DNA of 64,000 bases. Source: Comamonas fluminis. Lineage in GTDB: Bacteria > Pseudomonadota > Gammaproteobacteria > Burkholderiales > Burkholderiaceae_C. The stretch spans positions 1,439,501 to 1,503,500 of the forward strand of contig NZ_CP066783.1 in the NCBI RefSeq assembly GCF_019186805.1, written 5' to 3'. Position numbers and translations under genes: made by a program. The notes beneath the pieces were generated by a model. The model was not told where the DNA came from, ran no database searches, and was given only the letters and a program-made list of their open reading frames with translations. Positions 7,061 to 63,361 of this stretch are shown piece after piece (within the stretch, counting starts at the first letter, position 1; each line of letters begins with the position of its first letter).

Positions 7061-7078
7061 TTAGTCTTGATGGACGAT
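7061..7078. promoter_or_regulatory. Dyad operator candidate (site 1)
   Basis: TTAGTC-TTGATG-GACGAT, 67 bp upstream of the first SDR start. The right half is identical to the consensus GACGAT and the left half is identical to the tesB site. Confidence 0.55.
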
Positions 7079-7144
7079 GGGCTGAATTGCATTTTTTCTT
7101 ACGCTGTCTCTACGTTTTGATTGCATATCAACAAGGAGACAAAA

Positions 7145-7876
7145 ATGCGTTTAGCAGGAAAAGTGGCTGTGGTCACCGGTGCAGGTCAGGGCATGGGGCG
7201 TGCCATTGCCCAGCGTTTCGCTGATGAAGGCGCCACCGTGGTTGCCTTGGATCTGAATGAAGAATCTGCCAAGCAAACGCTGGAAGGCAAGGGCGGCAAG
7301 CACATTGCACGCTCCGTCAATGTGGCTGACAGCGCCGCAGTCAATCAACTGTTCGCCGATATCAAGAAAGACCTGGGCGCGGTGGATGTTCTGGTGAACA
7401 ACGCTGGTACTGGCGGTGTGGACCAGTTCGCTGACATTACCGACGAAGCCTGGGCACGCGTGATTGGCGTGAACCTGAACGGCGCTTTCTACTGCGCACG
7501 TGCTGCCGTCAAGCAGATGCAGGAAGGCAAGGGCGGCACCATCGTCAATATCTCCAGCACCTCGGCTGTGAGCGGTGACGGCCCTGCGCACTACTGCGCT
7601 TCCAAGGCCGCCATGATGGGCCTGACCCGTGGCATGGCCAAGGAACTGGCACCCAAGAAGATCCGCGTGAACACGCTGGTTCCTGGCCCCACCAACACTC
7701 CCATGATGCAGGGCATTCCCAAGGAATGGGCTGACGCCATCATCGCCGGCGTGCCCATGGGCCGCATGGCTGAACCCGATGACATCGCCAAGGTGGCAGT
7801 GTTCCTGGCCAGCGATGACAGTGCTTTTGTGACGGGTCAGAACGTGGCAGTCAACGGCGGCAGCGCCTTCCTGTAA
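7145..7876 (+). CDS. SDR oxidoreductase, candidate C-12 hydroxysteroid dehydrogenase/reductase (steA or steB)
   Basis: 243 residues; start at 7145 is set by an AAGGAGAC ribosome-binding site, 8 codons inside the longest frame. Classical short-chain dehydrogenase: cofactor motif TGAGQGMG, NNAG motif, catalytic Ser (NISSTSA), Tyr and Lys (HYCASK). Known: in C. testosteroni TA441 two SDR genes upstream of tesB, steA and steB, oxidise and re-reduce the C-12 hydroxyl of cholate intermediates, inverting alpha to beta. This gene and the next occupy that place; I cannot tell which is which. The next gene starts 12 bp downstream, so they form one operon with the SnoaL and OYE genes. Confidence 0.75.
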   Translation: MRLAGKVAVVTGAGQGMGRAIAQRFADEGATVVALDLNEESAKQTLEGKGGKHIARSVNVADSAAVNQLFADIKKDLGAVDVLVNNAGTGGVDQFADITDEAWARVIGVNLNGAFYCARAAVKQMQEGKGGTIVNISSTSAVSGDGPAHYCASKAAMMGLTRGMAKELAPKKIRVNTLVPGPTNTPMMQGIPKEWADAIIAGVPMGRMAEPDDIAKVAVFLASDDSAFVTGQNVAVNGGSAFL

Positions 7877-7888
7877 GGAGAAAGAAAA

Positions 7889-8656
7889 ATGAGCAAGCGT
7901 CTTGAAGGCAAGGTTGCATTCGTCACTGGTGGTAGCTCTGGCATTGGAGCTTCGACCGCCGAGCGTTTCGCCCAAGAGGGTGCCACCGTGGTGATCTGCG
8001 GTCGTCGCAAGGAGCCTCTGGAAGAAGTCGTAGCCAAGATCAAGGCTGCCGGTGGCAAGGCCGAAGCCGTGGTGGCGGATGTGGGCGTTGAGTCGCAGAT
8101 CGTTGGTGCGCTGGAGCAGACGGCCAAGACCCACGGCAAGCTGGACATTCTGGTGAACAACGCCATGGCCTACACCTGGGGCGGCATTGAAGCCATGTCC
8201 ACAGAAGACTGGCAAGCCAATTTCGGCACTTCCGTGGATGGCACTTTCTGGGGCACTCGCACGGCTCTGAAGCTGATGAAGAACGGCGGCGGCTCCATCG
8301 TCAACCTGAGCTCCATCTGCGGCACGCTGGGCACGCCCTATATGTCGGGTTATTCGGCTGCCAAGGCCGCGGTGATCAATTTCTCGCGCGCTGCAGCCGC
8401 TGAAGGTGCTGCTGCGGGTGTTCGCGTGAACGTGATCATCCCCGCCGTGATCGAGACGCCTGCCACTGCAGGCATGCTGGCCGATGAAGCATCGCGTCAG
8501 ACCACCGAAAAGCTGATCCCCATGGGCCGCGTCGGTCGTTCGGACGAAGTGGCCAATGCCATTCTGTTCCTGGCCAGCGATGAATCCAGCTATGTGACTG
8601 GTGCTTCGCTGCCCGTCGATGGTGGCCGCGCCGCCGTGCTGGTTACCGCACTGTAA
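7889..8656 (+). CDS. SDR oxidoreductase, candidate C-12 hydroxysteroid dehydrogenase/reductase (steA or steB)
   Basis: 255 residues, with an AAGGAGAAAG ribosome-binding site. SDR hallmarks: TGGSSGIG nucleotide motif, NNAMA in place of NNAG, catalytic Ser in NLSSICG, Tyr-x3-Lys in GYSAAK, and a C-terminal SYVTGASLPVDGG. Partner of the preceding SDR and by position the second of the steA/steB pair that swaps the configuration of the C-12 hydroxyl during cholate breakdown. The two are diverged paralogues rather than recent duplicates. Specific direction (oxidation or reduction) cannot be deduced from sequence. Confidence 0.75.
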   Translation: MSKRLEGKVAFVTGGSSGIGASTAERFAQEGATVVICGRRKEPLEEVVAKIKAAGGKAEAVVADVGVESQIVGALEQTAKTHGKLDILVNNAMAYTWGGIEAMSTEDWQANFGTSVDGTFWGTRTALKLMKNGGGSIVNLSSICGTLGTPYMSGYSAAKAAVINFSRAAAAEGAAAGVRVNVIIPAVIETPATAGMLADEASRQTTEKLIPMGRVGRSDEVANAILFLASDESSYVTGASLPVDGGRAAVLVTAL

Positions 8657-8674
8657 GCAAGAGAGTCTGAAGAG

Positions 8675-61850: not shown

Positions 61851-61915
61851 GCTCTTGGTGCATGCCACTTCAAGTTGTGTGCGCCAGGCCAAGCTCAATG
61901 CAAATGGAGTTTGAG

Positions 61916-62290
61916 ATGAACACCACGGAACATATGACGGAGGTGGTGCAGCGCTACGTGGCTGCACTGAACGAGGGTGACCTGGAGGGCATTGTTGCCC
62001 TGTATGCCGATGACGCGACGGTGGAGGACCCAGTGGGTTCAGAGCCGCAGCGCGGCATTGAGGCGATTCGTGCTTTCTATGCCAACTCGCTCAAGCTGAA
62101 GCTGGAAGTGGCGCTGACTGGTGAGGTGCGTGCCGTGGCCAATGAAGCGGCGTTTGCTTTTACCGTGGGCTTTGATTATCAGGGCCGCAAGTCTGTCATT
62201 TCGCCTATCGATCACTTCCGCTTCAACGAAGCTGGCAAGGTCATCAGCATGCGTGCGCTGTTTGGTCCGGCGAATATTCACCAGGCCTGA
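61916..62290 (+). CDS. ksi: Delta5-3-ketosteroid isomerase
   Basis: 124 residues from ATG 61916 (GGAG at 7-base spacing). Tyr14, Asp38 and Asp99 of the classical C. testosteroni enzyme are in place ([23 protein letters not shown]), and the ends MNTTEHMT and GPANIHQA fit. Isomerises 5-ene-3-ketosteroids to 4-ene-3-ketosteroids through a dienolate, at the start of testosterone-type catabolism. Same NTF2 fold as the two SnoaL proteins. Whether it is read from the hsdA promoter through the repeat at 61760 is unclear. Confidence 0.95.
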
Positions 62291-62474
62291 ATCCATGCCG
62301 TGCCGAAAGCAGGCGGTTAGTGCCCGCTTCTGAATACAAAGCCGCTTGCGCTAAATTTCAAGGGATTTCAGATGGTTTTCGATCTGAAGTCCATGAATAT
62401 CAAGCGCAAGAAGCTTTCATTTTGATAGCGATTCGAAGCACTTGTGGATGAGGAATTTGTCCTCATCCGCTGGC

Positions 62475-63287
62475 TTATTCGCCCTTGAACACTGCAGGCC
62501 GCTTTTCGATAAAGGCGTTCATGCCTTCCTTCTGATCGCGGGTGGCAAACAGAATCTGGTTGGCCTTGCGCTCCAGCATCAGGGCGGCGTCCAGCGATGC
62601 ATCCATGCCCGCAATCACCACTTCCTTGATCTGCTCCACGGCCAGCGGCGGCATGTGGGCGATCAGTTTTGCCATTTTCATCGCCTCAGGGATTACCTGA
62701 TCGTCCTCGCAGACTAGGCTGACCAGACCCATTGCATAAGCCTCTTCGGCGCTAACAGGTTTGCCGGTCAGCAAAATGCGCATGGCCTGGAACTTGCCCA
62801 CGGCGCGCACCAGGCGCTGGGTGCCCCCAATGCCGGGCATGATGCCGATGCGAATTTCAGGCTGGGCAAAGCTGGCTCCCTTGCCTGCAATGATGATGTC
62901 GCAGTGCATGGCCAGCTCTGCACCACCGCCAAATGCATAGCCGCAAACGGCGGCAATGATGGGCTTGGGGCACTTTTCAATGGGCGCCCACACGCGCTCG
63001 GTGTGGCGCTTCATGATCTCGATGGGGCCGCAGGAATCCATGCTCTTGATGTCGCCCCCAGCAGCGAAAACCTTCTCTCCGCCCGTCAGCACAATGCATC
63101 GCACGCTGTTGTCGCTGCCTAGTTGCTGGAACGTTTGCGACAGCGCTGCCTGCAGCGACAGGCTCAGGGCATTGGTGGCCTGAGGGCGGTTGAGCTGCAC
63201 GATGACCACACCGTTCTCTTCGCGTTGAACCAGTAGCTCCTGCTGCGAGGTGCTCGTGTTTTCAATAGCAGTAGGCGATGCTGACAT
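62475..63287 (-). CDS. Enoyl-CoA hydratase (crotonase) with complete active site
   Basis: 270 residues; start 63287, since the longer frame to 63977 overlaps the divergent SDR and crosses the dyad. Oxyanion loop AAGGDIKSM; both catalytic glutamates present (GGGAELAMHCD and AQPEIRIGIMPGIGGTQRL), unlike the crotonases at 13336 and 15349. Should hydrate trans-2-enoyl-CoAs. Possibly serves side-chain beta-oxidation with the fadE-type dehydrogenases of this region. Confidence 0.87.
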   Translation of the reverse strand: MSASPTAIENTSTSQQELLVQREENGVVIVQLNRPQATNALSLSLQAALSQTFQQLGSDNSVRCIVLTGGEKVFAAGGDIKSMDSCGPIEIMKRHTERVWAPIEKCPKPIIAAVCGYAFGGGAELAMHCDIIIAGKGASFAQPEIRIGIMPGIGGTQRLVRAVGKFQAMRILLTGKPVSAEEAYAMGLVSLVCEDDQVIPEAMKMAKLIAHMPPLAVEQIKEVVIAGMDASLDAALMLERKANQILFATRDQKEGMNAFIEKRPAVFKGE

Positions 63288-63343
63288 AAGGCTTTCCAAG
63301 GGTTTGAACGGGGTCGATGGTCGGCCTCGCAGGGTTGAGCTAC

Positions 63344-63361
63344 ATCGTCCTTTTGGACGTA
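63344..63361. promoter_or_regulatory. Dyad operator candidate (site 12)
   Basis: ATCGTC-CTTTTG-GACGTA between the crotonase (57 bp) and SDR (35 bp) starts. Confidence 0.6.

Follow-up and report, generated by a model that had tools for sequence, protein, structure and literature searches.

A conserved promoter dyad of steroid degradation genes in Comamonas as the probable docking site of TesR

The closest described parallels come from quorum sensing and from steroid degradation itself. The lux box of Vibrio fischeri is an imperfect dyad of about 20 nt, which is bound by a LuxR-type helix-turn-helix (HTH) in class II activation and normally lies 42.5 nt upstream of the start (PMC7585371). In Comamonas testosteroni, the regulator TesR (or TeiR) is reported to be required for the induction of tesB-tesR, tesA1-tesG and tesA2-ORF18 (PMC6895838); published accounts give it a kinase or cascade mechanism and, in the sections cited here, name no box. 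We analysed a 64-kb stretch (the window, C2:1439501-1503500) of the 4.9 Mb genome of Comamonas fluminis, in which a sequence-only reading had noticed an 18-bp dyad before nearly every unit of a steroid degradation region. Operon order and a GerE domain identify the regulator encoded in the window as TesR of the tesB-tesR cluster. Judged by the sequence evidence, the dyad, with the consensus cATCGTCC-N4-GGACGATg, is real, belongs to a near-fixed promoter module and tracks TesR. It is very probably the docking site through which TesR switches the steroid genes on together, in Comamonas and in many other steroid degraders.

The dyad and the promoters it precedes

All twelve dyads listed by the sequence-only reading were present when read in place, one of them starting at 47438 rather than 47439 (Table 1). 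Those at 26451 and 47438 are indeed perfect in both halves, and 42804 and 60903 are half-sites as described, each with a single good half. The statement that most sites lie in divergent spacers did not hold, as only five of the twelve do (32457, 47438, 53273, 60903 and 63344), and the distance to the start codons, given as 35-95 bp, becomes 25-94 bp with re-mapped starts. As for the units said to have no box, none of the top 40 matrix matches is intergenic before the secretion operon or the genes at 44652-45533; gene 30496, also listed as boxless, has weak matrix matches at 31078 (9.9) and 31168 (9.2) in the adjoining gap (30970-31222).

With up to three mismatches, the bare pattern ATCGTC-N6-GACGAT occurs 50 times in the window against 15.0 expected (standard deviation 3.9), a count reached in none of 100 shuffles. 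It catches nine of the twelve sites, as 32457, 42804 and 60903 need more mismatches, and it is loose, since 40 of its remaining 41 matches lie outside intergenic segments of at least 40 bp (the other, at 44576, is intergenic). A symmetric weight matrix was built from eleven sites with the twelfth left out, each in turn. Every held-out site came among the 13 best positions of the window, and all positions that scored as high or higher were intergenic, in a gene map that leaves 5577 of 64000 bases between genes. Independently of the earlier reading, all hexamer dyads with spacers of 0-14 were counted in 28 intergenic segments (5219 bases). The highest z-score (10.4, from 13 occurrences against 1.27 expected) went to TCGTCC-N4-GGACGA, level with TAGTCC-N4-GGACTA, which is a form of the same motif; other dyads do reach raw counts of 12-17 in shuffled sets.

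The genome-wide check of specificity that had been suggested gave a divided answer. The bare consensus with two mismatches is weakly specific, with 334 matches in the sampled genome against 242 for the reversed control (1.4 times, by counts only), and was rejected as a stand-alone detector, whereas strong matrix matches are rare in control DNA (two dyads of at least 14.5 bits in ten stretches totalling 200 kb). At this threshold the window holds 11 dyads (all twelve minus 42804), the right 100 kb seven and the left 40 kb one; those accompanied by a hexamer at 20-22 bp on either side number 11, seven and none, with one in the controls. The left-flank dyad lies inside a called gene and has no -10. 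On the right, sites outside the matrix training precede DUF1329/DUF1302 genes and a thiolase-like gene, and a site in the tesA region lies in a spacer with a flavin-reductase gene, itself followed by tesD-G-like genes, on one side and an acyl-CoA-dehydrogenase-fold gene on the other. Searched genome-wide at E <= 10, a dyad-only model returned seven distinct places, four of them in the window (150 of 510 candidates scored), and a composite model trained on the window sites returned 25 match rows, 14 of them in the window (150 of 601 candidates scored).

Downstream of the dyad, a -10-like hexamer begins 21 bp past the 18-mer in seven of the eight sites treated as one-way (TACGCT, CAGAAT, GATGAT, GAGCAT, GAGTAT, GAAGAT and GACCAT) and 20 bp past it in the eighth (TACGCT at 56444). 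In a circular-shift null the observed offset peak was reached in 8 of 100000 trials. A hexamer stands at 21 bp on either side of 53273, 60903 and 63344, at 21 bp (+) and 20 bp (-) at 32457, and on the + side only at 47438; by this arrangement a single dyad can apparently serve two divergent promoters. With the -10 set at -12 to -7, the dyad would span -51 to -34 and be centred at -42.5, as placed relative to the -10-like hexamer. LuxR is reported to bind the lux box at this very position (PMC7585371), and the length of the dyad agrees with the 18-20 bp of a class II site.

The expected start, about 7 nt past the -10, coincides with the ATG of the SDR at 63396 (+; 63383-63398) and meets that of the MFS gene if this begins at about 53238 (-; 53238-53251), hence these messages may be leaderless. 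The distances from box to gene for the two vary by a few bases across three relatives (G128, G018 and G178).

The claim that the dyad is an activator site is thus supported by its near-fixed 21-bp distance to the hexamer and by the published induction of matching units. In C. testosteroni JLU460ET, three hours of testosterone raised the counterparts of boxed units by log2 4.2-8.3 (PMC10637631, Table 4), where we paired genes by order and annotation, not by sequence. The values are 6.90 for steA, 8.25 for tesB, 5.35 (first gene) to 4.88 (tesR) for the tesR operon, 5.48 for CaiB, 6.33 for SDR6, 4.37 for the ligase, 4.23 for the amidohydrolase and 5.82 for its MFS neighbour, 7.26 for kshA, 4.69 for the other MFS gene, 4.52 for the aldehyde dehydrogenase, 6.28 for hdhA, 5.77 for OYE, 7.44 for hsdA, 6.53 for the enoyl-CoA hydratase and 7.83 for the last SDR (PMC10637631). 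Where the window has no strong box, GM003914 and GM003915, between the tesR and CaiB counterparts, were unchanged, and GM003905, between the ligase and the amidohydrolase, responded weakly (1.94; PMC10637631). That the dyad is instead a repressor operator, with steroids lifting the repression, would agree with the several repressors of 3,17beta-hydroxysteroid dehydrogenase (3,17beta-HSD) described in C. testosteroni, one of them of LuxR type (PMC6678751). We consider this very improbable, as a centre near -42.5, a weak -10 and no -35 consensus among 15 aligned promoters make up the geometry of an activator and published work has TesR acting positively (PMC6895838).

Table 1. Dyads of the window with their -10-like hexamers and putative targets, and the regulator gene. 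Conservation refers to relatives with a box unless stated otherwise.
Feature	Position	Strand	-10-like hexamer	Putative target or domains	Conservation and remarks
Box TTAGTCTTGATGGACGAT	7061..7078	+	TACGCT 7100-7105	steA-like SDR (7145)	4/4 relatives
Box TTAGTCTCAACGGACGAT	10667..10684	+	CAGAAT 10706-10711	tesB operon (10756)	4/4 relatives
Perfect box	26451..26468	+	GATGAT 26490-26495	operon 26523-30419, tesR last	4/4 relatives
tesR, proposed activator	29166..30419	+		GAF-like domain, middle domain, GerE HTH	
Divergent box CCCGTCCATTTGGAGTAT	32457..32474	both	AACACT 32496-32501 (+); CAAGAT 32431-32436 (-, 20 bp away)	SDR 32535 (+); CoA-transferase 32401 (-)	
Weak 13th candidate, degenerate box CTAGTCTGAATCAGGTAG	33497..33514	+	CAACCT 33536-33541 (21 bp on)	before thiolase 33580	matrix score just 3.5; similar sequence in Comamonas relatives G128, L002, L005
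Weak box TCAGTTCAAGCGGACGAT	42804..42821	+	GAGCAT 42843-42848	acyl-CoA ligase 42903	same 18-mer in G128 (below threshold 11); different box in G004
Perfect box ATCGTCCATTGAGACGAT, divergent spacer	47438..47455	both	GAGGAT 47477-47482 (+)	MFS 47550 (+); amidohydrolase 47353 (-)	- side without good -10; no box before this MFS in G018 and G178
Box	50945..50962	-	GAAGAT 50918-50923	kshA (50882, -)	at least 11 in 3/4 relatives, 9.7 in the fourth
Divergent box	53273..53290	both	GAGCAT 53312-53317 (+); CACGAT 53246-53251 (-)	aldehyde dehydrogenase 53355 (+); MFS 53247 (-)	both sides kept in 4/4 relatives
Box ATGGTCCGTTTGGCGGAT	54933..54950	+	GAGTAT 54972-54977	hdhA-like SDR 55010	2/3 relatives
Box	56444..56461	-	TACGCT 56418-56423 (20 bp away)	SnoaL-like gene 56361 (-)	no match to the gene in the examined stretches of 4 relatives
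Divergent box ATCGTCCGTTTGCATGTA	60903..60920	both	TTTGAT 60942-60947 (+); TACTGT 60876-60881 (-)	3alpha-HSD-like SDR (+); OYE-like gene (-)	
Divergent box ATCGTCCTTTTGGACGTA	63344..63361	both	TAAATT 63383-63388 (+); GACCAT 63317-63322 (-)	SDR, ATG at 63396 (+); enoyl-CoA hydratase 63272 (-)	both sides kept in 3/3 relatives

Conservation of the dyad and its co-occurrence with TesR

In four relatives (G128, G018, G178 and G004) a box of at least 11 bits precedes 41 of 47 first genes of units, 40 times with a hexamer at 20-22 bp, and 6 of 65 operon-internal genes. The relatives' genes are best tblastn matches of at least 48% identity within the fetched stretches, which does not prove orthology. 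Below the threshold fall the first genes AMPlig in G128 (9.3), kshA in G178 (9.7) and 3aHSD in G178 (10.8). One internal positive, thiolase3 of G004, is a slicing artefact; the others (MFS1 in G004, GMC in G018 and OYE2 in G018, G178 and G004) may head units in those relatives.

TesR homologues were found in 72 loci, ranging from Comamonas to Pseudomonas, Marinobacterium, Shewanella and Colwellia. In 66 of them one or more further window genes are matched as well, though many of these belong to common SDR or acyl-CoA dehydrogenase types. The 72 loci (L001-L072) contain 175 boxes of at least 15 bits, spread over 66 loci, against a mean of 3.7 and a maximum of 13 for 60 shuffled palindromic matrices; four of the six loci without a box (L006, L018, L022, L028, L034 and L068) are shorter than 6 kb. 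An offset of 21 bp to the hexamer was the best of 60 in each of five locus groups, with 22 close behind in the gammaproteobacterial one. These groups cover 71 of the 72 loci (L068 was left out), four being defined by taxonomy and one by the Comamonas paralogues of TesR. Intergenic labels from gene calls on single loci were noisy and were not counted.

The offset, the relatives and the shuffled matrices contradict the idea that the dyad is a dispersed repeat, a mobile palindrome without regulatory role or a chance set selected by the reader. The small genome-wide excess of the bare pattern would suit such an origin; near-fixed spacing, recurrence before the matching units of different genera and scarcity in control DNA do not, and we give it next to no credence.

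Does the dyad follow the regulator? TesR was detected at E <= 1e-60 in eleven of 250 family genomes, and composite matches at E <= 0.1 occur in all 11, against 21 of the 239 others (Fisher 2.7e-11, uncorrected for kinship). Leaving out our own genome, on which the model was trained, all ten remaining TesR genomes score (Fisher 2.1e-10, likewise uncorrected), and 23 of their 31 composite matches share a contig with TesR and are no more than 100 kb away from it. When genomes were drawn by KshA_C instead, 10 of 397 genomes of the phylum and 5 of 399 of the order qualified, giving 12 distinct ones. TesR-like proteins (E <= 1e-20) are encoded in 11 of the 12; G368, the sole one without TesR, is also the sole one without a match at a permissive cut of E <= 0.3. 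In the nine KshA genomes besides our own, G128 and G368, 28 of 33 matches are within 100 kb of a TesR gene, and the five distant matches include all three of G280 and G489.

Some further observations concern individual genomes. G104, one of the TesR-negative genomes with matches (76% complete), has them beside a KshA gene and an acyl-CoA-dehydrogenase-fold gene, so it may be a steroid degrader whose tesR was not assembled. In G310, G613, G512 and G142, TesR homologues have one stop codon inside the matched stretch, and some of these copies may be decayed. G512 and G310 each possess four TesR-like genes, some of them close to KshA genes; this may point to several related steroid sensors that differ in ligand.

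TesR as the probable reader of the dyad

TesR is of LuxR type, as had been proposed, with a GerE domain (PF00196, 28.3 bits against a cut-off of 23.5) at residues 353-406. It is predicted to combine a GAF-like domain, a middle domain taken as PAS-like and a C-terminal LuxR-type HTH. The HTH is near-invariant across 44 proteins, the others being 42-96% identical to TesR, while the remaining sequence varies. A Pfam scan found no receiver domain, so that TesR does not qualify as a response regulator, and showed neither an autoinducer-binding nor a kinase domain; structure comparison covered mostly residues 40-211, so that TesR may still have kinase activity. Searching the PDB sequences with the TesR alignment returned nothing at E <= 0.01.

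A paralogue of TesR (67%) is encoded at C2:2035458. Like its six full-length Comamonas counterparts, it is preceded by a perfect dyad, from which a hexamer stands 21 bp away (7/7). L066, considered as an eighth copy, lacks the first 262 residues and was left out; in this Comamonas metagenome-assembled genome a box stands directly before the TesR remnant, with no -10 at 21 (L066:9981-10468). The second TesR of Comamonas genomes (57-67%; L095:10254 and L074, the latter being C2:2035458) sits beside a GGDEF/EAL gene and has a near-identical HTH. It might share the regulon or compete for it, and one may speculate that it is the LuxR-type repressor reported for 3,17beta-HSD.

TesR had been named the first candidate for binding the dyad. 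Co-occurrence, the box before the paralogue outside the cluster, the near-invariant HTH and published genetics support this proposal; the binding itself, the dimer, the signal, the polymerase contact and the start sites are inferred. A different transcription factor that merely co-occurs with TesR could also own the dyad, with TesR acting upstream through phosphorylation, as published for TeiR. Such an arrangement would agree with TeiR being, in the published model, a polar membrane kinase (PMC6678751, PMC8399759) and with the LysR and XRE genes in the equivalent cluster of JLU460ET (PMC10637631). Nevertheless, TesR is the only one of all 52 mapped window genes with a transcription-factor domain in a Pfam scan, the paralogue carries the box before itself, and of six Comamonas paralogue loci four have no other window-gene match and two have one weak match (37-38%). 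Together with the conserved HTH and the lack of a Pfam kinase domain, this makes a second regulator improbable. We therefore favour direct binding of TesR to the box and activation of transcription over a pure kinase cascade, and we hold this with considerable, though not complete, confidence.

In such direct activation, the dyad would be the operator of the steroid regulon. A steroid-derived signal would be sensed by the N-terminal domains of TesR, whose dimer would bind cATCGTCC-N4-GGACGATg near -42.5, contact RNA polymerase where a -35 element would sit, and recruit it to the weak -10 hexamer 21 bp downstream. Owing to the symmetry of the dyad, one site could fire two divergent promoters. 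The box at 26451 suggests positive autoregulation: because tesR is the last gene of a boxed operon, the signal would start a positive feedback by which the regulon is switched on together.

Several points weigh against this interpretation. The -10 hexamers match TATAAT poorly, and the hexamer test is loose, as 3 of 10 control dyads of at least 11 bits pass it too, with a hexamer 20-22 bp away on one side or the other. At 47438 no good -10 faces the amidohydrolase, yet its likely counterpart GM003904 is among the induced genes (4.23), and GM003893, possibly the gene behind 56444, was not induced (PMC10637631). Neither MFS2 in G018 and G178 nor hdhA in G004 is preceded by a box. The loci L001-L072 were picked by TesR and hence say nothing on whether the box is lacking where TesR is, and the TesR-negative genomes that score (21/239) do so at about the rate predicted by E <= 0.1. 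In G280 and G489, two genomes of another class whose TesR-like proteins reach only 32-35%, none of the three matches is near a TesR-like gene, and for these two the box draws no support from the KshA test. Lastly, TesR/TeiR has been described as a polar membrane kinase (PMC6678751, PMC8399759), and the most hydrophobic 19-residue stretch of TesR scores a borderline 1.65.

Outside the steroid cluster, three places are candidate members of the regulon: a box before a DUF1329 gene with AACAAT at 21 bp (C2:1968774, L138:8774), one between an AMP-binding ligase and a SelO gene (C2:2892683, L096:9684), and one between a DUF1254/DUF1214 gene and another gene of the - strand (C2:2099911, L139:4934). 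A match at 314006 sits inside an apparent efflux-pump gene and was taken as chance; L093:15593 and L094:2802 reach 14.5 bits with poor hexamers and are not claimed.

Relation to known systems

In the literature searched, which did not extend to the original TeiR paper, we found no description of this box. Within that compass, what is new is the box itself, together with its spacing and its occurrence across beta- and gammaproteobacteria that degrade steroids. It has been stated that tesR-like genes occur only in C. testosteroni (PMC6895838), a statement on which the homologues with a box in many beta- and gammaproteobacteria bear. The wider spread fits a 2021 review, which mentions two TeiR-like genes in Pseudomonas stutzeri Chol1 and states, from data unpublished there, that cholate degradation was delayed when one of them was deleted.

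A conserved box at a near-fixed promoter position offers a direct handle on whether TesR is a DNA-binding steroid receptor. It also predicts regulon members beyond the cluster by sequence alone and could serve in steroid biosensors. We further think it fairly likely that one box and one GAF-PAS-HTH family of steroid receptors serve beta- and gammaproteobacteria as the general switch for degrading steroids and bile acids aerobically, working by direct class II activation, often with two divergent promoters per dyad, sometimes with leaderless messages, and with a second paralogue in Comamonas reading the same box.

How does this compare with what has been described? The lux box consensus differs in sequence from the steroid dyad, the TesR regulon is catabolic, and Pfam shows in TesR no domain of the kind by which autoinducers are bound. 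In steroid-degrading actinobacteria, KstR and KstR2 likewise act on palindromic operators of a steroid regulon; the KstR proteins, in contrast, are TetR-type repressors, whose homologues are described as absent from bile-acid-degrading Proteobacteria (PMC8399759). The EdcR operator of Caenibius tardaugens is also a palindrome at steroid promoters, but it has another sequence, overlaps the -10 box and serves a repressor (PMC8700777). A LuxR-type activator with a dyad near -42.5 is a kind of system already known.

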